A model generated the notes under the pieces. It worked only from the letters and a program-made list of their open reading frames with translations. It made no database searches and was not told where the DNA came from. From the NCBI GenBank assembly GCA_025449115.1, contig JAHLKC010000036.1, positions 124,001 through 188,000 of the forward strand: a DNA stretch of 64,000 nt. Reading direction: 5' to 3'. Each line of letters starts with the position of its first letter. Position 1 is the stretch's first letter. Below are positions 6,972-64,000 of the stretch, in pieces. The position numbers and the translations under genes are program-made. The stretch is from Chytridium lagenaria. Lineage: Eukaryota; Chytridiomycota; Chytridiomycetes; Chytridiales; Chytridiaceae.

Positions 6972-9900
6972 TCACGTCCGAACTCCCACCCCACTATCAT
7001 GCGACACCAATATCCGCCCCTCCCCACCCCTAATGTGTCTCCTCACATCACTAACTTCTTCATCCTCTTCTACGTCAAGAATCGTATCCCCCGTTGCAGT
7101 CTGAGGCAGCACCACATATGCTCTTGTCTGAGCCATAGCATCACCCTCCAGCACCACTTCAAGACTTGAAGCTTTCATAGTCACAGGTTCGCTCTCATTT
7201 CCTGTCCCAACTTCAACATGAGTCATTCCGGCGTCGAGTGCAACCTGATCAGAAAGGGCCGCATCTTCATCCACCAAACACAAAAAAGGAGTCGGCGCCG
7301 ACGATGGTGCTGCAGGCCCCCCTGACTCCACACCTCCAGCTGCAGCCGCGGCCGCATCAATCTCCGCCTTCTTTCTGATGCGCCCTCATCAATAACGTGT
7401 ACGTAAACATATCCGCCCTAATCCCCTCTTCGTTCATCATACTATGCATCCCCCTCGCCCCGTCAGCATCTCCCACCTTCACATAAGCCGATATCATAGC
7501 ATTACAAAGCCTCGTATCCAGTTTAACCCCCCTTTTCAATGCCTCCTCCATCCACCTCTTAGCCTCCTTCACATCCCCATTCGCACCAAACGCCCTTATC
7601 AACATGTCAAACGTCCTCACATCTGGAATAATTCCTTGTGTCTTATTCTCTTCACTCTCCAACGCAACTTGCTGCGTAAGTGCTATCTCGTACTCCTCAA
7701 CCATAGCCGATAGATTACCAGACTGCGCAAAACATTTAATCAAAATGTTATGCGGCATCACAGGGCGATGCGTAACCACTCCTGCCTCTGAAGACCCATA
7801 CTGGTGCGCCTCCCTCACCCTAACAGCCTCTTTGGAGCTAATAGCAATTTTCCTCGCGCTTCTCAAGTCACCCGTAGAAGCATACCCTTGGATCAACGGT
7901 GCAAAAGTTGCATCATCAGGCCGAAGACCTCTCCTCAATAGCTCAGTGTAAGCATCAAGAGCCCCAATCATGTTCAATCGTTGGACATTAGCATGAATCA
8001 GGATATTAAATGTCACGAGCGTTGGGTCGAGTCCTGACTTAAGAAGCCGATCGTACCATGCCATAGCGCCTTCTTGGTCTCCAGCACGTACGTGGGCGGC
8101 GATAAGGGTATTATATGTGGTGACGGCGGGAGAACAGCGTGTCTCATCATGTCTTCGAACATGTGAGAGGCAGCGGAAAGGTCGCCTGAGAGCCCGTACC
8201 CATGGATAATAGTGTTGAAACGCCACAAGACCTCGACGGAGACCAAGGCGAGGGAAGGCGTCCAAAACAGTCATAGCACCAGACATATCGCCGTTTATAC
8301 AATGAGCGTTGAGGAGAGCGCACAATGTGACTTCGGTAATAGGAATGCCTGTGGTTTCCATGTCACGAAAAATCTCAATTGCCCTCTCCAACTCCCCAGC
8401 CTTGGCGTAACCATCCAGAAGGATCGTACTCAGAACTGAATCCCTTGGAATTTTCCTAGCATTCATGTCATTTAAGATCACCTCAGCGCGGTCAAGGTTG
8501 CCAGTAGCCATGACAGACTGTAAGTAGACACTATAACAAAAAATGTCAGGCTCCACACCACTCTGTGACATCGAGTCAAAGAGCCTCTCCACGTGGTTAT
8601 GCTTGCCGAGGCGAAGGTGGGCCTGCATTAACATATGGTAAAGAGCAACACCCGGCTCATACCCATGTTTCAACATGTCTGCAAACATCTTCGATGCTTC
8701 AGACAGCCCGAAGTCTGTTGCATGACGAAGCGGCTCTGGCGCAGAGTCAACCCCACCCGTTGTTGGTCTCTTATAGACCTTAAAGTTGAGATAGCCATAG
8801 ATCAAGGACTCAAAGACAGATCGGCTAGGCTTGGCACCGCCGCGGAAGATGGCATCAAAACACTTTCTGGCAGACTCTACATCCTTTCTCTTCAGATATC
8901 CACGAATCAGAAGGCTCCACGACTGGGTGTTCGGGGCAATGTTGTAGAGCTTCATGGAATCAATGAATTTGAGAGCCCCGTCCAAATCGTTTCTTGCAAT
9001 AAAAAGCTGTGAGAATAAAGTTACAGGTCCGAACGTTTCTGATAAACGCTCCTGGAAACCTGCATTCCTTATCCCCGCCCTCTTGCATATTAACGTAACG
9101 TATCTCGTGCTCACGAATCCATTTCTCCCCCTTCCTCGGCCCATATTGTCTACAATATAAATCCAACAAAAGGTTGTAGATCTCTGTGTTAGGACGAAAC
9201 CCTTGCCCTTCAATGTATTCTTCAACATCTCCGACGAAAGGTCGTATCCGTGATCCAACTCCCGATGCGCCCTCATCTGTGCAGCAAGAAGGTCCGAAAA
9301 CTTGCTAGACACGTTTACTGTCTGCAAATCCTGGATTACTCGTTGCGTATTGCTGACTCTAATAGACGGGGTTCTCCCTGCCTCCCTTGCCGCACAAAAA
9401 AGGGCCGCAACATCTCGCCGAGTAAACCCCTTCAGGAAAGTAGCATCAGAATTTGCGAGAAAAATGTAGCTATTCCAGATTTTTATAAGGAGAATGGAGC
9501 AATCCACAGTGAACCCTTGATTTCTCTCAATGCTTATGTTGTAATCTTGAATCAAAGCTTTAAGCACATCCTTCGTCACGTCTTGTGCCGCAAAGGAAGA
9601 CTGCCGTTGCGACATAGCATGAGGTGGGATATAGTCTGGGTCGACGGCTGGAAGGAATGTGCTGGAAGAGGTAGGGGAGTTTTCGCTGTTCTGTGCGTGA
9701 AGGCTTCGCGCGGAAAGCCGGGGAAACAGTGACAACATGTTGCCAGCAGCATGAACCTGTTGACGACGTGGTGCCCGCAAGGGGGCATGAAGCATGGTGG
9801 GAGAAAGGTCCCGGTCTCTCGTGAAATGAGCTCTCAGCATTGATCCTGCAAACGTGGTCTTTGCTCGAGACGGTGCATGGCGAAAGGCTGCCGGAAACGA

Positions 9901-10191
9901 GGCTGAAACCATGCGTTCTACGCCTCCAATGCTAGCGGTGAGACCAATGGCGGCATCCAATAATCCTGGTGTTCGTTCAGCGACATTCAGACTTGCAGAG
10001 GATGGATGGTCATTCCCTTCTCTTGAAGATCCGCTGTGTCTGGCTATGCTCCTCTTTGGTCCATGGGTATCGGTTTGCATAAACCATTTAAGAAACGTTG
10101 ACCAGTCATCGGCGCCTGAAGTCATGGCCTTACGACAGCTTGCGACGGATGCACCGAGGGAAGTGTCGGATGAAGAGGATGGGGTCGGCAT
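6972..10191 (-). CDS. Pentatricopeptide repeat (PPR) protein, probably mitochondrial
   Basis: A large PPR protein, a family that binds organellar RNA in processing, stability or translation. From about residue 350 on, 35-residue PPR motifs follow one another, for example NTQSWSLLIRGYLKRKDVES, GVALYHMLMQAHLRLGKH, VTTYNTLIAAHVRAGDQEG, VTFNILIHANVQR and RTFDMLIRAFGANGDVKEA. The N-terminal third is Ser/Arg-rich and could hold a mitochondrial presequence. The first in-frame ATG is at 10191, but the frame stays open upstream to about 10365. The reading frame is broken by about five single-base indels: about 9230-9280, 9008, 8222, 8138 and 7375. Two pairs compensate one another, and the sequence between them reads as good PPR only in the shifted frame. 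After the last shift an Ala-rich acidic tail of about 120 residues runs to the stop at 6972. The total is about 1,070 residues. Confidence 0.88.
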
Positions 10192-10429
10192 GTCAGAACG
10201 AGATGAGGCAGAAGGTCTCGACGGTCTCCGCCTGACTGAATTAGCAGGCGGTTGTGCAGTAGCAGCCTTGCAATGTATAGAGTTGGTTGAGCACGGCGGT
10301 GACCCGGCAGCCGTACGAACGCCTCGGGTATCATCACTCAATCGTCTTAAGGATGCTAGCAGAAAATGGAAATTTTATTTTTTTTTCTTTCGTTTTTGCG
10401 TTCTTGTTGGTAGTGATATCAGAAAGCGT

Positions 10430-27969: not shown

Positions 27970-29093
27970 TCTATATTTGTTGACCAGGCAAATGGTTCTG
28001 AGATCTTGTTTTTAATATTTTTACCTTTCATTTTACCTGTATAGGGCCATGTGTTTGTTGAACGGATTTGGAGTCCGCCGTGAACGAGCGTCAGGCTCTT
28101 GGTCACCTTTCTCTTGCTGCTCGTGACGGTGAACATCTTGCCATGTATGAGCTCGGCAACTACTACCGGCACGGCCGCACCTCATCCACGTCTTCAAATA
28201 CGTCCTCTCCGTCTTCCTCCCGTTCGTCATCCCCCTTTTCATCGGGTGCTGACGACGACAACGACAGCCGTCGTGTCAGTCTGTCTGGGGAGAGCGATGC
28301 GGAAGACCATCGACGACATGGATTTGATGAGGATGAAGAGGATGAAGACTTTGAGTACCTCGATGGTGGTCATGGCCAACCTGCTTCGAATACGCGTAGA
28401 GCGTCGTTTGATGGATCGTTTCATGCCGTCAAAAACGTTAGACGAGTGGGTAGTGTTGTTGGTGCGAGATCTGGGAGTATTGTTGGACGACGACGGGCAG
28501 GATCCAGCGCATCCGCTGCAGCGGCGCTCGTTGACCATCGAGCGTTTTTAGGGGATCATGAAGTCCCCGCCTTGTTTCACAAGAAACGCAAGGGTGGGAA
28601 AAAGTCTGACCAACAAATTCATCGACGAACAAGGTCGACGGCGTCGCTTGTAGGGACGGTGCAACCATCCAGCGTGTTTGCGACGCCCCCCCCGCTTGTC
28701 AAGACGTTGACGGAGCCTGAGCGCCGGAGTTGGATGATGAGATGGTTTATGGCTGGGGCTGAGAGCGGACATGCTGATTCCCGGATTGCGGCTGCGGAAT
28801 GTATTTTGGCGAATGCGGCGGGGAACGAAAAGTGTGATAGGAAGATGGCGGCAGAGTTTTTGAGGATTGCGGCGGAGCAGAAGGGGTTTGTGCAGCAGCA
28901 GTTGGTGCCGGCTATGGGGGTTAGTGCGAATTTGCATTATCATCATCATCAGCAGCAGCTGGGACGGGGGGAGGGGGATGCCGGGGGTAGTTGGAGGAAG
29001 ACCTGGGCTGGCGGGGCCGAGAAGACGGTGGAGAAGAGTGAGGGGAGGAGGATGGTGAAACATCGAAGATCGAAGTCGGACATTAAGGCGTGA
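25208..29093 (+). CDS. Sel1-like repeat protein with long disordered N-terminus
   Basis: A large protein with a low-complexity N-terminal half and Sel1-like repeats (SLRs) in its last third. The N-terminus has a His-rich cluster (about 25314-25365), poly-Ser, acidic and Ala/Ser/Thr-rich stretches and poly-Gln near 27230. The repeats include EAAAATFARAMLDG (about 27780), AMCLLNGFGVRR (about 28050), LGHLSLAARDGEHLAMYELG, and MAGAESGHADSRIAAAECIL through RKMAAEFLRIAAEQ. Such repeats act as scaffolds, for example in the Skt5/Chs4 activators of chitin synthase, but an assignment to that family is not secure. One intron (about 27850-28043) contains a 74-nt T run. Frame changes at about 25937 (A-run), 27780 and 28080 are probably indels. 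The start ATG at 25208 follows an AT-rich leader. Confidence 0.78.
27891..27964. repeat. 74-nt poly-T homopolymer inside an intron
   Basis: An uninterrupted run of 74 T residues between exons of the Sel1-like gene. It is the longest homopolymer in the window, and in an intron near the acceptor it acts as an extreme polypyrimidine tract. Confidence 0.95.
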
Positions 29094-51892: not shown

Positions 51893-54800
51893 ATGGAACC
51901 TCGAACCGATGTGATGATCAGCTACCAGTGAGCTCTATATACCCACTCCCTTTCTTTCAAAGCAAAATTCTCTGACAAACATCATCTCAACAAACAGATG
52001 GGATCATCAAGCAACCGCCATCGCCGTCAAGCAATCCCTCGAATCCGCTGGCCTCACCGTCTGGATGGACGTTGAACGCATGAACGGAAACATCAACGAC
52101 GCCATGTGCGAAGCCGTCATGGGTTCTACTGTCGTCATTCCCTGTCTTTCTGTATTATATGAGGTGAACCACCATGTCTCCTTATCCACCTTCAAATCTA
52201 ACCAAAACCCCGTCGCTCTCTCCAGAAATCCCACAACTGTAAAAAAGAGCTCAATTTCGCCGACGAAGAACGTAAACCCCTCGTCCCCATCCGTCTCGAC
52301 AAAGGTCCCCTCAAATGGTCCCGTCTGATCACTGCTGGCTCCTGCTACATTGACCTCTCCAACATTGACACAAAAAGTGCCATATGGGACACCAAAATGA
52401 AATCCTTGACCAGCGAAATCCGTTCCCGGATCGCGCAATCCGCCATCGAGACCGCTGAGGAACAACAACAACAACCTGTCGCTGAAAAGGAAGAAGAAGG
52501 AGGAGAGGAGGAGGAAGAATATGGCAAGGATGACTTGGAAACACGTCAACAAAACACTGAAACCCTTACTCGCTCCCTCAAAGCCTCCTCAAAGCGTTCC
52601 ATCAAAACCACCCGTCGTGGCGCTGACGACACAAACGCTCCAGATCCCTACGAGTACGCTGAATTCATTGCCTCATTCGGATCAGCATCTAAAAACATTT
52701 CCCACATTATCAGTGGGATTGGTGCAGCCTGTGAGAAAAACATCCCAAAAGCCTTCACCATCTACGCCTACTGTCTCGAAAAGGGGTTCGGAGTCCCCCG
52801 AGACCAACGTGCAGCTTTCAACCTCTACAAACGCGCCGTTGCACTCAACGAACCCGGCGCCATGAACAATCTCGGGCTCTGTTATGAAAAGGGCATTGGA
52901 ACCAGTGTGGACTTTGAACTTGCCTGTCAGCATTACAAGATGGCCATAGAGGCTGGAAACGTCAAGGGCATCACCAACTATGCAAGGTGTTTAAAAAACG
53001 GCTTGGGAACCGATCCCGACACAACTCAAGCTTTCACCCTCTTTAACGAGGCAATGGAAAAGGGTGACCCCCTTGCCGGTCTCAACGTTGGCATCTCCCT
53101 TCTCCACGGTCACGGTACCTCCCAAGACGCCACCCAAGCTGTCACCCTTCTCAAGAAATACGCCAACACCAACGCCAAAGCCCAAAACATTCTCGGAGAC
53201 TGTTACCTCCGTGGTATCGGAGTCCCCGCGAACCCCGTGAAAGCCACCGACCTCTACATGAGTTCCTCTGTTCGCGGCAACGCGCGGGCGCAAAACACGC
53301 TCGCCTTTTGCTATGAGAATGGGGTTGGGATTGAAAAGGATGGGGAGATGGCGTTTCGGCTTTACAGGAAGAGCGCGAAACGGGGAGATGTGATGGCGTT
53401 GATGAATGTGGGGACGTGTTATTTGAATGGGATCGGGACGGGGAGGGATGATGTTGCGGCGTTTGAGTGCTTTTGTGAGGCGAATGAAAAGGGGAGTGTG
53501 GAGGCGACGGTGAAACTTGCTACTTGTTATGCGAGGGGTGTTGGGACTGTCAAGGATGAGGGGTTGGCGGTGGAGGTGTTGTTGGAGAAGGTTGTGAAGG
53601 AGGTTGTTAAAGAAGCGTTGAGAAAGTTTGTCGAGGAACGGGTTGTGAGCGTTAAAAGGAATCCTGAGATTGCGAAGAGAATTGTGGAGACGGTACCGGA
53701 ATTCAAAGAGGTTGTGGAAAGTGTTTTGGAATCGCCTTACGAAGACGTCATTGAAGACACTGTGTATTCAGGTTTGTGTTTATTGTAATCCGTCTTCACA
53801 TCTTTTTATTATTGTAGTTTATTCTTAATATTCCTGTTTTTCTGGTTTTTTTTATAGCTAATCATGTTCTTTTTTGTTACCCATGTTGTCACAGACGACC
53901 GCTTTAGCGAAGGTGGCATTGTCGCCCATGATATCAGCGAAGACATTGAAGTCGAAGTTGGCCGTGACATGCCCATAGAAACCGAGGCCCACAACATCTC
54001 AAGTATGTTCATCCCTTATTTCAACCCTTTCCATACTTACCCCAAACCTAGGTTTCTCCCAACTCCTCGCGTCTTTCACCATTCCACCATCTCTCGACAT
54101 CCTTCGTCAGGTAAGCCCCCCCCCCTCCTATTTTTTCATACAACTAACACTCACCTCACAAGGAGGACACCCGCACAACCCTCCTCGACTCCTTCCACCA
54201 TGACCTCGACATCGGCGAATACGTCACCCTCATCCTCCGATATTTTACCGACGGCGTCAACGACACCACGTTACAAGAGACGTTGAGGTACGAGATTGAC
54301 GCGGCCGAAGAGACGTTGAGCGACGAGAGGAAGGTGTTGGGCATTCAAGCGTTGATGGGGGTGTTGGGAGTGGAGGCTACGGTTGTTGCGGGGTTACCGT
54401 CTGACAGGGGATTGGTGGAAGTGGTGGATCGTGGAGGAGTTGTGACTGCTGCTGAGGTTGGTGAATCTGTGAGAGGATCTACGGCTGCTGTGCAGAGAGG
54501 GTCGGGGAGAGGATCTGTGACTGGTGCTGAAGTTGAGTCGGTGAGAGGGTCTGTTGTCGCCGATGAGTTTGTTGAAGATGGTTCTGTGAGAGGTTCTGTG
54601 GTTGCTGATAAGGGTGGTGAGCATGGCTCTGTGAGAGGATCTGTCGTCGCTGCTGAGCACGCCTCTGCAAGAGGATCTGTTGCTGCCGACAAGCCTGCTG
54701 AACATGGCTCTGTGAGAGGCTCCGTGGTTGCCGACAAGGGTGCTGACAAGAGTGCTGAACACGGTTCTGCAAGAGGATCTGTCGTCGCTGCTGAGCACGC

Positions 54801-57800
54801 CTCGACGAGAGGGTCTGTTGCTGCCGACAAGCCTGCTGAACATGGCTCTGTGAGAGGATCTGTCGTCGCGGCTGAGCACGCCTCGGCGAGAGGCTCTGTT
54901 GTCGCCGACAAGCTGCTGAACACGGATCTGTGAGAGGTTCCGTCGTTGCTAACAAGGGTGAAGAACACGGTTCTGCGAGAGGATCTGTCGTCGCTGCTGA
55001 GAACGCCTCGGCGAGAGGATCTGTCGTCGCTGCTGAGCACGCCTCGAGAGGATCAGTTGTCGCCGAGAAGCCTGCTGAACATGGTTCTGTGAGAGGTTCC
55101 GTGGTTGCCGACAAGGGTGCTGACAAGAGTGCTGAACACGGTTCTGCAAGAGGATCTGTCGTCGCTGCTGAGCACGCCTCGACGAGAGGGTCTGTTGCTG
55201 CCGACAAGCCTGCTGAACATGGCTCTGCGAGAGGATCTGTCGTCGCTGCTGAGCACGCCTCTGCAAGAGGATTAGTTGTCGCCGAGAAGCCTGCTGAACA
55301 CGGGTCTGTGCGAGGTTCCGTTGTTGCCGACAAGGGTGCTGAACACGGTTCTGCGAGAGGATCTGTCGTCGCTGCTGAGAACGCCTCGGCGAGAGGATCT
55401 GTCGTCGCTGCTGAGCACGCCTCTGCAAGAGGATCTGTTGCTGCCGACAAGCCTGCTGAACATGGCTCTGTGAGAGGCTCCGTGGTTGCCGACAAGGGTG
55501 CTGACAAGAGTGCTGAACACGGTTCTGCAAGAGGATCTGTCGTCGCTGCTGAGCACGCCTCGACGAGAGGGTCTGTTGCTGCCGACAAGCCTGCTGAACA
55601 TGGCTCTGCGAGAGGATCTGTCGTCGCTGCTGAGCACGCCTCTGCAAGAGGATTAGTTGTCGCCGAGAAGCCTGCTGAACACGGGTCTGTGCGAGGTTCC
55701 GTTGTTGCCGACAAGGGTGCTGAACACGGTTCTGCGAGAGGATCTGTCGTCGCTGCTGTGCACGCCTCGGCGAGAGGATCAGTTGTCGCCGAAAAGCCTG
55801 CTGAACATGGCTCTGTGAGAGGTTCCGTGGTCGCTGACAAGAGTGCTGAACACGGGGTCTACGAGAGGATCTGTTGCTGCCGACAAACCTGCTGAACACG
55901 GCTCTGTGAGAGGTTCAGTGGTTGCTGACAAGGGTGCTGAACACGGTTCTGCGAGGGGATCAGTTGTCGCCGACAAGCCTGCTGAACATGGCTCTGTGAG
56001 AGGTTCTGTGGTTGCTGACAAGGAGCTGACACGGGTCTACGAGAGGATCTGTTGCTGCCGACAAACCTGCTGAACACGGCTCTGTGAGAGGTTCAGTGGT
56101 TGCTGACAAGGGTGCTGAACACGGGTCTGTGAGAGGATCAGTTGTCGCCGACAAGCCTGCTGAACATGGCTCTGTGAGAGGTTCTGTGGTTGCTGACAAG
56201 AGTGCTGAACACGGCTCTGTGAGAGGATCTGTCGTTGCCGCTGAACACGGCTCAACACGAGGCTCCGTTGCGGCTGAAAAGCCTGCTGAACACACCTCTG
56301 CGAGAGGTTCTGTTGCCGCTGAAAAGATCACCGACCACGGGTCTGTGAGAGGATCTGTCGTCGCAAGCGGCTCGGCGAGAGGCTCAGTCGTCGCTGACAA
56401 GCCTGCTGAACATGGGTCTGCTCCAGAATCCGTCGTCGCTGAGAAACATGCTGAACACAGTTCGACGAGAGGTTCGGTCGCTGACAAGGCTGCTGAACAC
56501 GGTTCCGCAAGAGGCTCGGTTGCTGTCGACAAACCCGCAGAACATGGATCCGTGAGAGGTTCCATTGTAGCTGATAAATCTGCTGAACACGGGTCTACGA
56601 GAGGTTCGGTTGTTGCGGATAAGCCTGCAGACCATAGCTCTACAAGAGGCTCAGTGGTCGCGGATAAGCCTGCCGAGCATGGTTCTGCTCGAGGATCCGT
56701 CGTTGCCGCGGAAAAGCATGCTGAGCACGGGTCTGTTAGAGGTTCGGTCGTTGCAGACAAACCTGCAGAACACGGATCCGTGAGAAATTCAGTTGTTGCT
56801 GATAAGCCTGCGGAACACGCTGGGCATAGCTCCGCTCGAGGATCCGTCGTCGCCGCCGAAAAGCATGGTGAACACGGGTCTGTGAGAGGTTCGGTCGTTG
56901 CAGACAAACCTGCAGAACACGGATCCGTAAGAAATTCAGTTGTCGCAGATAAGCCTACTGAGCATGCCGAGCATAGCTCTGTAAGAGGATCCGTCGTCGC
57001 GGATAAGGCTGCTGAGCACGGGTCTGCGAGAGGTTCTGTGAGGGGATCAGTTGTCGCCGAAAAAACGACCGAACATCATTCTGCTAGAGGGTCAGTAGCT
57101 GCCGACAACTCTGCTGAACACGCTTCTGCCCGCGGATCCGTTGTAGCCGAAAAACCTGCTGAACATGGATCTGCGCATGGATCTACGAGAGGGTCGGTAG
57201 TCGTCGCCGACAAGACGGAAGAACATGGTTCTGCGAGAGGGTCTATTGTTGCTGACAAGCCTGCTGAGCATGGCTCTGTGAGAGGTTCAGTTATCGCCGA
57301 TAAACCTGCCCAACATGGTTCTACGAGAGGTTCAGTCGTTGCCGAAAAGCCTGCTGAACACGGCTCTGTGAGAGGTTCCGTGATTGCTGACAAAAGTGGT
57401 GAGCACGGGTCTGTGAGAGGATCAGTTGTGGCTGAAAAGCCTGCTGAACACGCCTCCGCGCGAGGTTCTGTGGTTGCTGAAAAGGTCACCGAACACGGAT
57501 CTGTAAGAGGATCTGTCGTTGCAAGCGGTTCGGCAAGAGGCTCTGTCGTCGCTGACAAGCCTGCTGAACATGGATCTGCAAGAGGATCAGTGACCGCTGA
57601 GAAGGTCAAGGAGCAAGGGTCTGTAAGGGGATCAGTTGTCGCTGGCAAGGCCGCTGACAACAGCTCGGTGAGAGGTTCAGTTGTCGCCGACAAGCCTGCT
57701 GAACATGGGTCTGCTAGAGAATCCGTCGTCGCTGAGAAGCATGCAGAACACAGTTCTGCGAGAGGTTCAATCGTCGCCGACAAGGCTGCTGAACATGGTC

Positions 57801-60331
57801 CGCAAACTCGGATGGTGCCGGCAACCTGCAGAACATGGATCCGTGAGAGGTTCAATTGTCGCTGACAAGGCTGCTGAACACGGGTCTACGAGAGGTTCGG
57901 TTGTTGCGGATAAGCCTGCAGACCATAGCTCTACAAGAGGCTCAGTGGTAGCGGATAAGCCTGCCGAGCATGGCTCGGCTCGAGGATCCGTCGTCGCCGC
58001 CGAGCAGCATGCTGAACACGGTTCTGTAAGAGGTTCGATCGTTGCCGACAAACCTGCAGAACATGGATCCGTGAGGAATTCAGTTGTCGCTGATAAGCCT
58101 GCGGAACACGCTGGGCATAGCTCCGCTCGAGGATCTGTCGTCGCCGCCGAGAAGCATGCTGAACACGGTTCTGTAAAAGGTTCGGTCGTTGCAGACAAAC
58201 CTGCAGAACATGGATCCGTGAGAATTCAGTTGTCGCTGATAAGCCTGCTGATCATGCTGAGCATGGCTCTGCTCAACACGGTCTGCGAGAGGCTCTGTTG
58301 CCGCTGATAAACCTGCGGAACACAGTTCTTCGAGGGGATCTGTCGTGGCCGAGAAGCATGCTGAACATGGATCTGCGGGTGGTTTGTTGTTGCCGACAAA
58401 TCTGCAGAGCATGGATCCGTACGAGGTTCAGTCGTCGCTGACAAGCCTGCTGAACACCCTGAGCATAGCTCTGCACGAGGATCCGTTGTCGCCGACAAGC
58501 CTGCTGAACAGGGGTCTGGATCTGTCACGAGAAGCATGCTGAACACAGTTCTGTACGAGGATCCGTCGTCACCGACAAGGTTGCTCAACACAGTTCTGCG
58601 AGAGGTTCTGTTGTTGCCGACAAACCTGCAGAACATGGATCCGTGAGAGGTTCAGTCATCGCTAATAAGTCTGCTGAGCACGGCTCAGCGAGAGGTTCAG
58701 TCATCGCCGACAAAGCTGCTGAACACGGTTCTGTAAGAGGATCTGTCGTCGATAAGCACGCCCAACATGGCTCTACGCGTTCCGTTGTGGCTGAAAAGCC
58801 CGCTGAACACTCATCTGCAAGAGGATCAGTTATCGCCGAAAAGGCTGTTGAACATGGTTCTGCGAGAGGATCTGTCGTCGCCGCCGAGACGCATGCTGAT
58901 CACAGTTCTATAAGAGGATCGGTCGTCGCTGATAAGTCTGCTGAACGTGGCTCCGTGAGAGGCTCAGTTATTGCTGACAAATCTGCGGAGCATGGGTCTG
59001 CCAGAGGTTCGGTCGTCGTTGATAAGCCTGCTGAACACGCGTCTGCGAGAGGATCTGTCGTCGCGGACAAGCCCGCTGACATGTTCTGTGAATGGATCTG
59101 TCGTCGAAAGGCATACTGAACATGGTTCAAAAGGTTCAGTTGTTGCCGACAAACCTGCTGAACATGGTTCCGCGAGAGGTTCAGTGGTAGCTGATAAGCT
59201 TGCTGATCATGGTTCCACGAGAGGCTCCGTTGTGGTGATAAGCCTACTGAACACCCTCTGCGAGAGGATCGGTTGTCGCCGAAAACCTGCTGACCATGGG
59301 TCTGCTCGAGGATCAGTTGTTGCTAATAAGCCTGCTGAACATGCTTCTTCACGAGGATCAGTCGTTGCTGAAAAGGCTACTGAGCAGGGATCTGGAAGAG
59401 GTTCAGTTGTGGCTGGCGAGGGAACTTCAGCTATCGTGGACAAGCCTCTTGAGCACACCTCGCTAGAGGATCAGTCACAGCTGAGAATGTTTCTAAACAG
59501 GATTCCGTGAAGCCTGGTGAACATGGATCTGCAAGAGCGTCTGTGACCAGTGGCACGTTATTGGAAAGGAATCCGGTAAAGGTTCAGCAAGTGCTGGCGA
59601 TGCTGCGAATAATGCGTCGGTCAGAGGATCAGTGGTTGATGCCAAGCCTGCGGAAAGCTCGTCTTGTCAGAGGTTCAGTGGTCGCGAGCGACGCTAAGAA
59701 TGCGTCTGTCAGGGGATCTGTTGTTGCTGGCCAGCCTGAGTCTGTCAGAGGATCTGTTGTCGCCAGCGATGCACTTAAGAATGCGTCTGTCCGCGGATCT
59801 GTGGTCGCTGAGGTGGGGCTAAAACCGCATCTGCTCGTGGATCAGTTGTTGCGCATGATGGTGAAAAGGAAGGGTCAGCAAGAGGATCAGTTGTCGCTGG
59901 CGCTGCTCTGTGCAGGCGTCTGTGGCTGCTGGGGATGTTGTTAAGCATCATTCAGCTAGTGGGTCGGTTATGCTGGCCCAGCTGCTGACGCGTCTGTGAG
60001 AGGATCTGTTGTCGCTGAAAAGACTGCTGGCGTCTCTGCAAGTGGATCAGTGAAGGGCTCCGTTGCAGGTAGTCCAAAAGGGCTCTGTCGTTGGTGGGGA
60101 GGAGTTGGGATTAACAGCGCTGTACAAATTGAGCAGGGTGATGGACATGTGGCTGGGGAACACGTTGAGTCCCATAATAATGCTCATCATGCTGAGAAAT
60201 CTCATGAGCACGTTGAGCATGGCGAAAAGGCGCACGATTCTAAGAGGGCCAAAAGCACATTAAGCTGCCTTCATTCATGTGGGATATTAGATTTAATCAT
60301 TGACCTATATTCTATACTATTTTTATCATGA
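51893..60331 (+). CDS. TIR domain - Sel1 repeats - novel helical module - giant 15-residue repeat protein
   Basis: The exons 51893-51927, 51998-52163, 52226-53771, 53895-54002, 54052-54110 and 54163 onward keep frame without a break to about 54911. Residues 6-100 form a TIR domain: DVMISYQWDHQATA, LESAGLTVWMDVERM, NINDAMCEAVMGSTVVIPCL and HNCKKELNFADEERKPLVPI. Glu75 in NCKKE occupies the place of the catalytic Glu of TIR NADases such as SARM1, so NAD cleavage is possible but not shown. A Glu-rich linker is followed by eight Sel1-like repeats (about residues 240-525), e.g. GAMNNLGLCYEKGIGTSVDF. A helical module (about residues 619-705) follows. Then come about 1,650 residues of 15-residue repeats and a His/Glu-rich tail. 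The repeat region changes frame at about 54912, 55855, 56027, 57795, 58220, 58530, 59090, 59235 and 59280, among others. TGA at 60329. The full product would be about 2,700 residues. Confidence 0.83.
54052..54385 (+). other. Helical C-terminal module encoded by an exon pair (gene 1 copy)
   Basis: A 59-nt exon (54052-54110, FSQLLASFTIPPSLDILRQ) plus the start of the next (EYVTLILRYFTD, LRYEIDAAEETLSDERKVLG, IQALMGVLG). The same two-part pattern occurs three times in the neighbouring paralog. I know no family for it. Confidence 0.7.
54540..59460 (+). repeat. Coding minisatellite, about 45-bp unit, roughly 100 copies
   Basis: Tandem units that translate as variants of GSVRGSVVADKPAEH. Common alternatives are SARGSVVAAEHA, ADKGAEH and AEKPAEH. 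Copy number is estimated from length. Higher-order duplication is evident: a 381-bp block recurs at about 54.73, 55.11 and 55.49 kb, and a block of about 0.4 kb near 56.54 kb recurs near 57.84 kb. Because of codon usage, the opposite strand and other frames are also open for long stretches; those frames are by-products. Degenerate units continue to about 60020. Confidence 0.95.
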
Positions 60332-60685
60332 GGAATTACTCTATCACAAAAAAAAACCGCCATTGTAAAATAAAACAAATAAACTGATTAAAGATTTATG
60401 GCCACTTCAAAAAATAACAGACGGAGGCAAGTCGACCGTGTGCTTTGGTAGATAGACAAAAATAAATACAGTGTAAGTATTCGTCGCTTGAACAAGAACC
60501 GGTCTTAAACTTTAAACTACATGAAGTTTCTCTAACTGCTTGGTAAATAAGGCGCGTTTCCAATCATGGGCATTCAAGGCTCAGTCTGAGACAAAGGCTT
60601 TTGTAACCATTATCTGTGTAGTCTCACCAACTCTTCAACCAACATTGACCCCAGAACTTACCCTCCGCGTCGGTCGCCTGCAGTC
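60332..60685. other. Short intergenic region between the two TIR-Sel1 genes
   Basis: About 350 bp that must hold the terminator of gene 1 and the promoter of gene 2. AT-rich at its start; no coding sequence. Confidence 0.5.
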
Positions 60686-63600
60686 ATGACGGGAAAGACA
60701 GATGTGATGATCAGCTATCAGTAAGCTTACTCTCCAAAATTGAGCTAATTGATGCAGATGGGGCCACCAAAAAACAGCTGTTGCGGTCAAGGAGTCGCTC
60801 GAAGCTGCTGGGCTCACTGTATGGATGGATGTTGAACGTATGCGTGGGAACATCAACGACGCAATGTGTGAAGCCGTCACGGAATCCTCTGTCGTCATCC
60901 CCTGTCTTTCCTTTTATATGAGGTTAGAGCCACAACCGTAATTCCTGTTCTTACCGTTCACCAGTCCTCGCATAATTGCAAGAAGGAGCTGAATTTCGCG
61001 GACGAAGAACGGAAACCTCTCGTTCCTATTCGTCTTGACAAAGGACCCCTTAAATGGTCACGCTTGATCACGGCAGGGTCGCTGTACGTCGACCTCTCAG
61101 AAATCACAGACTTCAAGGGAAAAGTCTGGGAAAATAGAATGGAATCCTTAACGAGCGAAATACGTTCCAAAATAAAAGATCTACGGGATAAAGAGGAGAG
61201 TGCGAAACCTGTGAAGGAAGGCTTGAAATCTGGGACAACTCAAACCGAAAAGCCCACGGAAGAGTCCCAAACGAAGCTGGTAGAATATGCTGCGTTTTTG
61301 GCGTCGTTTGGATCTGCTGGAAAGGATATCAAGCAGATTATTACTGGTCTTAAAATGGCGTCGGATAAAAACATCCCCAAAGCTATGACGATGTACGGCT
61401 ATTGTCTCGAAAAAGGGTTTGGTGTTTCAAAGTCCCCCGGTGCCGCTTTCGAACTCTACAAGCGCGCCGTAGAGCTCGGTGAACCCGGTGCCATGAACAA
61501 CATTGGGCACTGCTACGAGCATGGGATAGGATGTGAAAAGGATTTGGATATGGCATTCACCATTACCAAATGTCAGTAGACGCTGGAATGTTAAGGCGCT
61601 TACGAATTTGGGGAGGTGCTTTAAGAATGGGATTGGAGTTGAAAAGGATACGACGCAAACGGCGGAGCTTTTTATGAAGGGTATGGCGGAGGGAGATATG
61701 AATGCCGGTGTTAACCTGGGAATATCGCTGCTACACGGACATGGCGTTGAGAAAGATGTTCCAGAAGCTGTGAATATTCTCAAGAAATATGCCGGGAACA
61801 ACGCGAAAGCCCAAAACGTACTCGGTGATTGTTACCTCAGGTAAGAAAGTGATTTATAACATCTGATGATCTCAAATCGTTCCCCGTATTCCAGAGACTC
61901 CGTGCTTTTCTTTAAATAATTATTAAATTTTCTAAAAGGGGCATCGGCGTTAATCCGAATCCAGCCAAGGCCACCGAGCTCTACATGGCCTCCTCCGTAC
62001 GAGGAAACGATCGTGCTCTCATAGTCTCGGCTACTGCTACGAAAATGGTATCGGAGGCCTCCCTCAAGACCCCGAAACCGCTTTCAAGCTGTACAAAAAA
62101 TCTTCTGAAAAGGGAAACACACTTGCAACCACCAACATTGGCGCTTGCTACCAAAACGGTGTCGGTACGGAAAAGAACGAAAAGGCTGCATTTGAGTGTT
62201 TTGATGGTGCTGTGAAGAAGGGGGAGAGTGCGGCATATGTAAAGCTTGCAACGTGTTATGCGAAAGGGATTGGGACCACCGTAGATACCAAAAAGGCGGC
62301 GCAAGTGCTGTTGGATCCGGTGGTGAAGGATAATGTGGACGTTAAGGAAACATTAAAGGCTTTTTTGGCGGAAAATCTTATTACAGTACCGGAAGATGTG
62401 AAGAAGGAGATTTTGGAGACATCTAAGCCGAAAGTGCTGGTTGCGGCTGACAAAAGCGACAGGAGCACATTAAAAGGTTGGATAGCGGGATTCTCCTTTT
62501 TCTTAAATTTCTTTTACTTATTCGACTTATTTATCTTGAACACGCCCTTTAACTTTCCAGCCAAAAGATTCTTAGGTAAACTGTTCTTTTGCTTCCGGAT
62601 TTCCGTTAATTAACTGATTTTTAACATTTCATCTTCTTAGATTTTAAAAGTTCCTGGCCTGGCTCGGCACTCCCCATCCCCTCAAAAGGTCGACACGGTA
62701 AGTGCCTGAAGTTTCAAACATCCTTTCTACTTTCTTGAGTTTATTTCTAATTACTTTGCAGGATACCACTAAAAGCAAGATCTTAAACCACCCTATCGCC
62801 GTTGAAAACACAAACATCAAAACTTACCTCGATATGATATCCTCTATTTCGTAACAGAACAACCGAGACTTCAATCAGCGCTTCGAATGAACGTCGCGAG
62901 GGTTGAAAAAAATTTAAGTGGGGATGAGAAAGCTGTGCTTTATCTATTCTGATGGAAGTGCTGCTCGAGCTTTCTGGAAGGTTTAAAGGTATATGGGTCT
63001 CCTCTCAATGATGTCCGTTAAGCTTTATTACTAGATTTCGAACATTTCCTGTCTTTAATGGTCCGCCTTCCACGCCCTGAGACCTTAGACCACTGTAAGA
63101 TCAAATCGCACCGCTTACATCTCTAACCCTCCTAACTTTTCAGGAATTTAATAAATCTAAATTATTCAACCACAAATCCGTCGCATGCAACGATGGAATC
63201 AAGGAATACATGGAATTGGCGTTTCTCTATTTTTGTGTCAAAGGAAGCACGCTTTCAAGCTGTATTTTTAAATGATTTGGAAAGAGTTGAGGTGATGCTA
63301 AGTGATGACGAGAGGGCGGATGGACTTACAGCTCTTGCCGAGGTGCTAATTGAGGCTGCTGTTTCTGAAGAATCTGAGAAGAATGTGGAACCAAGAGCTT
63401 TGCAGACGAAAGATACGGAGACTAGAAGTGTGGAGACTAGAGATGTGGAGCCCGAAGTACAGGGTTATAAAAGTGGGTTAAATGTGCTGAAATTTATTTT
63501 AATTGAATTTAGACTTCGAGAACCTCCTGTCGTCTGTGGAAAAGATCCCGACTGTAGAGCAATTCAATGCTGTAAGCTTTTAACTACTTTTTCAACGTCG

Positions 63601-64000
63601 TAAAAGCTTTACTAACATGTTGTAAAGGGTTTCAACAAAGATGCTCTTCACAGCAACACTGCCGTGGAAAACAACGAACGCGTCATTGAGTACGTTGACA
63701 CTATTGCCCTCTACTTCTCCACAGAAGATCGCTTCCAGTCTGTTCTTCGAAGCGATGTAGAGAGACTTGAAGAGAGTCTTAGTGCGTCTGAGCGAGCAGG
63801 TGGACTTGCTGCCATTGCGGAGGTGCTGGCAGGTATTGATACTCATGAACCAGAAATTGTGAGTGTAGGTTTTTTAAATTCTATCTAACATATTTAATAG
63901 GTGGAGATTTCTCACGACTATGAACATGACGGAGATTTTGAGGGTTTCCATGGAGATGACGATGCTGCGGCGGTGGAAGCCACAGCCGGAGACTTTATAA
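60686..64000 (+). CDS. TIR domain - Sel1 repeats - helical modules (tandem paralog, partial at window end)
   Basis: A close paralog of the upstream gene, cut by the window end. Exons are 60686-60720 (again 35 nt, phase 2), 60758-60922, 60965-61843, about 61939-62477, and then a series of short exons. TIR motifs are DVMISYQWGHQKTA, EAAGLTVWMDVERMRGNIND and HNCKKELNFADEERKPLVPI, with the same Glu as gene 1. The linker differs (Lys/Glu-rich). Sel1 repeats follow (AMTMYGYCLEKGFG, AMNNIGHCYEHGIG, AGVNLGISLLHGHG, AQNVLGDCYLRGIG, TNIGACYQNGVG, KLATCYAKGIG). In place of the 15-residue repeats come three copies of the helical module and an acidic tail (HDYEHDGDFEGFHGDDDA) open to base 64000. Frame breaks at about 60911, 61563, 61588, 62030, 62650, 62855, 62955 and 63230 are single-base differences from gene 1 or from the other modules. 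Confidence 0.86.
62641..62988 (+). other. Helical module copy 1 (paralog 2)
   Basis: Exon A 62641-62697 (FLAWLGTPHPLKRSTR after a one-base shift) and exon B 62762-62988 (AVENTNIKTYLDMISSI, ALRMNVARVEKNLSGDEKAV, LMEVLLELSG). Two frame changes lie inside exon B. Confidence 0.65.
63035..63475 (+). other. Helical module copy 2 (paralog 2)
   Basis: Exon A 63035-63094 (FEHFLSLMVRLPRPETLDH) and exon B from 63144 (FNKSKLFNHKSVACNDGIKE, ARFQAVFLNDLERVEVMLSD, ERADGLTALAEVLIEAAV), followed by a Glu/Thr-rich linker with EPRALQTKDTETRSVETRDV. Confidence 0.72.
63513..63858 (+). other. Helical module copy 3 (paralog 2)
   Basis: Exon A 63513-63571 (FENLLSSVEKIPTVEQFNA) and exon B 63628-63858 (GFNKDALHSNTAVENNERVI, EYVDTIALYFSTEDRFQSVL, DVERLEESLSASERAGGLAA, IAEVLAGI). 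This copy is free of frame breaks and best defines the module. Confidence 0.78.

Follow-up and report, generated by a model that had tools for sequence, protein, structure and literature searches.

The window analysed here is a 64,000-nt stretch of the Chytridium lagenaria genome (C36:124001-188000; 41.9 Mb in 356 contigs in all; Chytridiales, Chytridiomycota). It contains two neighbouring genes on the + strand, gene 1 starting at 51893 (P0001, BC829DRAFT_181199) and gene 2 starting at 60686 (P0002, BC829DRAFT_416679), both of which NCBI records as 'hypothetical protein'. A sequence-only reading had described them as an adjacent same-strand pair in which a TIR domain precedes Sel1 repeats, and had proposed a recently duplicated, undescribed signalling or immunity-like family. 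We confirm the gene pair, including the quoted motifs DVMISYQ(W), WMDVERM and NCKKE, which are present in both genes; the interpretation as a whole is partly supported. In window coordinates, the TIR-Sel1 part of gene 1 consists of the following features.

51893..51927, + strand: exon 1, with the gene start and the first strand of the TIR (MEPRTDVMISYQ); the spliced reading agrees with P0001
51998..52163, + strand: exon 2, TIR middle (VWMDVERM, GNI, VVIPCL)
52226..52432, + strand: beginning of exon 3, with the second half of the TIR, NCKKE and Glu75; the TIR_2 match covers residues 7-114
52697..53734, + strand: Sel1 solenoid of about ten helix pairs, residues 225-570

The spliced TIR-Sel1 product of gene 1 is 582 residues long and 100% identical to P0001, and no frame changes were seen on reading this part of the sequence. 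It matches the Pfam TIR_2 profile at 1.3e-19 (71.3 bits against a curated cut-off of 28), and six stretches match Sel1 (1.1e-51) as tandem helix pairs of ~36 residues. A predicted structure likewise gives the TIR and Sel1 parts those folds. No Pfam match to NACHT or NB-ARC was found in the 582 residues or in the tail frames 54148-54930 and 56030-57862.

Family and protein searches of the genome recovered six TIR genes, which bears out the suggestion that further copies would be found. Besides genes 1 and 2, they comprise a third TIR-Sel1 gene on contig C138 (53% identity), a gene on C68 in which the TIR domain is joined to NPHP3_N/NACHT (9e-7) and WD40 repeats (2e-70), a gene on C72 (C72:92098-92571) whose TIR domain lies between two stretches without a Pfam match, and C36:101933-102205. 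Two introns occupy the same positions in the first five genes, one after SYQ/SYK/SFK, as in gene 1, and one after YE. Junctions were chosen by eye, and a script confirmed GT and AG ends for all ten introns; the phases are 2 and 0 by our reading, with the frame into intron 2 of gene 2 broken. The C72 TIR has at least one additional intron. Because five genes share these two introns, the comparison points to one ancestral TIR cassette, now found in three protein contexts: ahead of Sel1 solenoids (three genes), ahead of NACHT-WD40 (one) and inside the unassigned context of C72 (one). In C72, a region of ~230 residues precedes the TIR domain, and a stretch that looks coiled-coil-like by eye follows it.

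Glu75 of gene 1 aligns in register with the catalytic Glu of SARM1 and Cat1, and this residue is kept in 9/9 family TIRs, including the diverged C68 TIR. A profile of the family ranks Cat1, SARM1, Roq1 and other TIRs that process nicotinamide adenine dinucleotide (NAD) above Toll-like receptors; the gene 1 TIR by itself matches SARM1 at only E 0.014, and a PADLOC search with gene 1 gave only a weak SAVED_TIR match (2e-4). In SARM1, an NAD+ hydrolase with the domain order ARM-SAM-TIR, the catalytic Glu belongs to a WxxxE motif, with Trp four residues ahead of it. The chytrid TIR is instead N-terminal, and the Trp is absent from 9/9 TIRs (NCKKE in gene 1, variants in the others). Given the kept Glu and the profile ranking, yet no Trp, the gene 1-type TIR is likely, but not certain, to be an enzyme. 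The same two observations, the Glu in all nine TIRs and the priority of NAD-processing TIRs in the ranking, argue against non-enzymatic homotypic adaptors, in which TIR-Sel1 scaffolds would bind the TIR of the NACHT-WD40 or C72 protein and recruit it to a partner held by the Sel1 repeats; we regard this alternative as rather unlikely.

Relatives in other organisms connect this TIR lineage to NOD-like receptor (NLR)-like proteins. With the P0001 TIR as query, four proteins passed among 223 candidates: two from C. lagenaria, P0121 (Nowakowskiella HK096_008364, TIR-NACHT-WD40, 57% identity to gene 1) and P0122 (a EukProt protein, TIR-NB-ARC, 38%). A full-length search, in which the 8000 candidates with most shared words were scored, added P0049 (Quaeritorhiza HK102_007532, TIR-NACHT, 46% identity to gene 1), P0091 (Dinochytrium, TIR with a partial NACHT just below threshold, 34%) and the metagenomic TIR-Sel1 proteins P0041 and P0095. 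Nowakowskiella, Quaeritorhiza and Dinochytrium all belong to the Chytridiomycota. P0121, P0049 and the C68 protein share the TIR lineage of gene 1 and also carry the TIR domain ahead of the other domains; P0121 and C68 end in C-terminal repeats, as gene 1 does, and C68 in addition has both TIR introns. In place of NACHT (and of WD40 too in P0121 and C68), gene 1 carries Sel1 repeats followed by a disordered array. The introns shared with C68 and the 57% identity to the P0121 TIR thus identify the N-terminal domain of gene 1 as an effector of the NLR repertoire. Chytrid TIR-NACHT proteins may also begin with a PB1-like domain, as seen at residues 9-44 of P0049 (PB1 0.0046, below the cut-off) and, by eye, at residues 1-90 of P0121.

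TIR_2 and Sel1 occur together in four proteins among the matches listed (120 of 200), two of which are C. lagenaria's own. In a tree of 12 TIRs, in which no branch is strong, the three C. lagenaria TIR-Sel1 TIRs cluster (82/95). P0041 and P0095, which like gene 1 have a TIR domain followed by Sel1 repeats, probably represent a different TIR lineage and stand apart from the nine chytrid-type TIRs with weak support (78/80), so the metagenomic and chytrid TIR-Sel1 proteins are probably independent fusions. PADLOC matches and sequence style suggest that P0041 and P0095 are probably bacterial.

We propose that genes 1 and 2 encode NACHT-less TIR receptors or signalling proteins drawn from the fungus's own NLR-like toolkit, a reading to which we give a probability of roughly 45%. 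Domain shuffling inside the NLR-like repertoire, in which a Sel1 solenoid rather than NACHT-WD40 accompanies a TIR effector, is the most economical account; the tree gives no direction for that shuffling. In the proposed mechanism, the Sel1 solenoid would bind a partner or ligand, and clustering of the chains would bring the TIR domains together. The assembled TIRs would then use Glu75 to cleave NAD+ or a similar nucleotide, and the loss of NAD or the cleavage product would trigger defence or regulated cell death. An immune function is suggested by kinship with the TIR-NACHT-WD40 genes: the immunity-like reading gains indirect support from the C68 gene, which is headed by the same TIR cassette, and from the nearest TIRs in three other chytrids, which adjoin a full (P0121, P0049) or partial (P0091) NACHT.

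Several observations weigh against this proposal. The missing Trp of WxxxE could weaken or alter catalysis. The C68 TIR is far diverged: its best-matching part is 33-38% identical to gene 1 or gene 2. With no NACHT or other switch of the signal transduction ATPase with numerous domains (STAND) type in the scanned pieces of gene 1, the trigger for clustering is left unexplained. Gene 2 may be a pseudogene. Lastly, no TIR-Sel1 protein of the gene 1 TIR lineage was found in a second species by the protein searches, which were word-based and insensitive; a search with P0121 returned only P0121 and missed P0001, whose own search had recovered P0121, so a failure to find the fusion in other species carries little weight.

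Both genes continue beyond the Sel1 repeats into repetitive tails.

54163..54378, + strand: gene 1, single helical module of ~65 residues, found by alignment with the gene 2 modules (28% identity to module 3)
54526..60043, + strand: gene 1, array of 15-residue repeats (xRGSVVADKPAEHGS) at the C-terminus
62783..62952, + strand: gene 2 module 1, matched in part (E 0.29), with a frame break
63151..63366, + strand: gene 2 module 2
63631..63837, + strand: gene 2 module 3
C36:188744-188938 and C36:189195-189383: gene 2 modules 4 and 5, past the window end

The gene 1 array comprises 105 motif copies, with 13 frame changes between neighbouring copies. An open frame alone was rejected as proof of coding, since the reverse strand is likewise open; a codon-position test was applied for this reason. 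Across 71 strictly matched units, the coding frame gives 17324 codon pairs with a single difference, of which 13080 (75.5%) are synonymous; in each of the two other frames the share is 8%. Four successive segments of 10 to 33 units, separated by frame changes, have synonymous shares of 0.65-0.80, against 0.265 at random (the stretch after 59500, with one unit, was excluded). This excess indicates that the repeats encode protein and have been constrained both before and after several of the frame changes; part of it could stem from exchange between units. The motif is confined to the array, with 26/26 genome matches to a 91-residue stretch falling inside it. In a model of 894 residues that reaches the array start only, the tail is predicted to be disordered (predicted local distance difference test, pLDDT, about 30), and the single helical module appears as helices at residues 640-705 (pLDDT about 55-70). 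The long tail frame gave a Pfam match to Bactofilin at 1.4e-9, its 38.5 bits exceeding the cut-off of 27.9. Reading the array as a beta-solenoid or polymerising domain was considered and provisionally rejected: no separate stretch passed, and the array start, as far as the model extends, is disordered.

The tail of gene 2 contains five helical modules, apparently one per exon as judged from frames, and extends ~1.4 kb past the window to about C36:189383, so gene 2 is not complete within the window. A genome search with the helical module gave 5/5 matches in gene 2 (weakest E 0.29), and the gene 1 copy is visible by alignment only, without an E-value. One gene carries a 15-residue array and the other a module array, but with this module type in common the C-termini differ less than the sequence-only reading held. 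The C138 gene carries a separate acidic repeat tail. In our proposal, the disordered array of gene 1 and the helical modules of gene 2 may serve as multivalent spacers or tethers and in this way modulate clustering.

The array is conserved in sequence and not diversified, and Sel1 proteins are commonly scaffolds. Both points would suit a structural or developmental scaffold specific to the lineage, such as one at the zoospore membrane or cytoskeleton, in which the TIR domain serves self-assembly only and is unrelated to defence. The four nearest TIRs found outside the genome, by contrast, adjoin NACHT, partial NACHT or NB-ARC. None of the TIR relatives recovered by the word-based searches has an assigned housekeeping role, and no conserved housekeeping orthologue was found by them. 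We consider such a scaffold unlikely.

The TIR-Sel1 part of gene 2 is organized as follows.

60686..60720, + strand: exon 1 (MTGKTDVMISYQ)
60758..60923, + strand: exon 2, TIR middle, with a frame break near the exon end
60966..61840, + strand: exon 3, NCKKE-bearing second half of the TIR, then linker and first Sel1 repeats, with a frame break inside Sel1
61939..62478, + strand: exon 4, rest of the Sel1 repeats, with a frame break near its start (start placed by eye and checked; end approximate)

A recent origin of the pair is rejected on the basis of the proportion of synonymous differences (pS) between gene 1 and gene 2, which is 0.77-0.83, with amino acid identity of 50-62% across three in-frame pieces. 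Between the TIR-Sel1 genes pS is 0.76-0.99; synonymous sites are thus near saturation and the synonymous substitution rate dS cannot be estimated. The ratio of nonsynonymous to synonymous differences (pN/pS) is 0.24-0.40 for the long TIR-Sel1 pieces, gene 2 included, while the exon 3 portion of the TIR gives 0.14-0.21. The TIR-Sel1 genes are old and conserved, the TIR part most strongly, and have been under purifying selection overall, a measure that is silent on whether individual sites diversify.

In gene 2, the TIR-Sel1 part changes frame at least three times in ways that introns do not reconcile. The NCBI model of gene 2, 74% identical to gene 1 across the TIR query, is correspondingly short (527 aa). 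Together with the 13 frame changes in the gene 1 array and two in the C138 copy (our own reading), these breaks could mean that the pair is mostly decaying: gene 2 would be a pseudogene, the distal array of gene 1 would be pseudogenic as well, and nothing but the C138 copy and the opening part of gene 1 would be of consequence. CCT-type chaperonin genes are essential, and one in the same assembly (C9:314780-315990) also shows two frame changes on reading the DNA, with no room for an intron, which calls for caution in naming pseudogenes in this assembly. The DNA of a chaperonin locus on C4 shows a frame change explainable as an intron, and no further abutting pieces in different frames were seen at other chaperonin loci, judged from match coordinates alone. 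As these loci showed few frame changes, the rate in gene 2 probably exceeds that of most conserved genes of the genome. Purifying selection across the four array segments split by frame changes and the pN/pS of gene 2 speak against decay, although both tests reflect past selection and very recent decay would register in neither. For gene 2 itself, the C9 and C138 breaks and the constraint on its protein favour assembly error, and the scarcity of such breaks at the other chaperonin loci favours decay. We regard widespread decay of the pair as very unlikely.

TIR enzymes are a common thread of immunity in bacteria, plants and animals, whereas the fungal repertoire is generally described as one of HET domains, with TIRs scarce; a HET family search of this genome gave one match. 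In an early-diverging fungus, one cassette heading NACHT-WD40, Sel1 and other architectures would show how TIR effectors moved from one receptor frame to another at an early stage of fungal evolution. It is possible, if rather doubtful, that the TIR-Sel1 proteins form a fungal immune-receptor class without a NACHT switch, in which an NLR-derived TIR enzyme and a Sel1 sensor would be clustered by long disordered tails beside TIR-NACHT-WD40 receptors. The C. lagenaria TIRs are also small, testable domains for probing NAD+ cleavage by fungal TIRs that lack the usual Trp.

The bacterial STAND protein Avs5 offers a partial parallel. It differs from gene 1 in being bacterial and in having a STAND ATPase, and its N-terminal domain is SIR2, not TIR. 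Some members nevertheless combine an NAD-linked N-terminal domain with C-terminal sensing repeats: PMC12931631 gives the domain as NAD/FAD-binding superfamily and describes TPR or Sel1-like repeats in some members. For chytrids, the family is not wholly undescribed, in that TIR domains in NLRs of Chytridiomycota are already stated in PMC9815663. That statement and the TIR-NACHT genes found here conflict with the 2014 search in PMC4986451, which reports no NLR hits in chytrids. No publication on a fungal TIR-Sel1 protein was found in open-licence PMC literature, and the fungal TIR-Sel1 form, the introns in common with a TIR-NACHT-WD40 gene and the tails appear to be new.

Further observations concern other loci. 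A genome search with PF01582 found no match and misses C. lagenaria TIRs, given that the known TIR genes gave none; a search for the SLOG family PF18139 also gave no match, as did its controls. A NACHT-WD40-like gene lies at C76:179230-179694 (NPHP3_N 4.5e-24, WD40 by eye), where a local profile of five TIRs found no TIR exons. The sixth TIR gene (C36:101933-102205, minus strand, TIR_2 3.4e-8) is dissimilar to the others and lies 22 kb before the window, near long same-strand frames, of which the one scanned had no Pfam match. Inside the window, a frame at 28062-29090 opens with a stretch that is Sel1-like by eye (ALGHLSLAARDGEHLAMYELGNYYRHG), with no Pfam match at 0.001, and an ordinary pentatricopeptide-repeat frame of 1005 residues (PPR_2 4.5e-68) occupies 7360-10374 on the minus strand.
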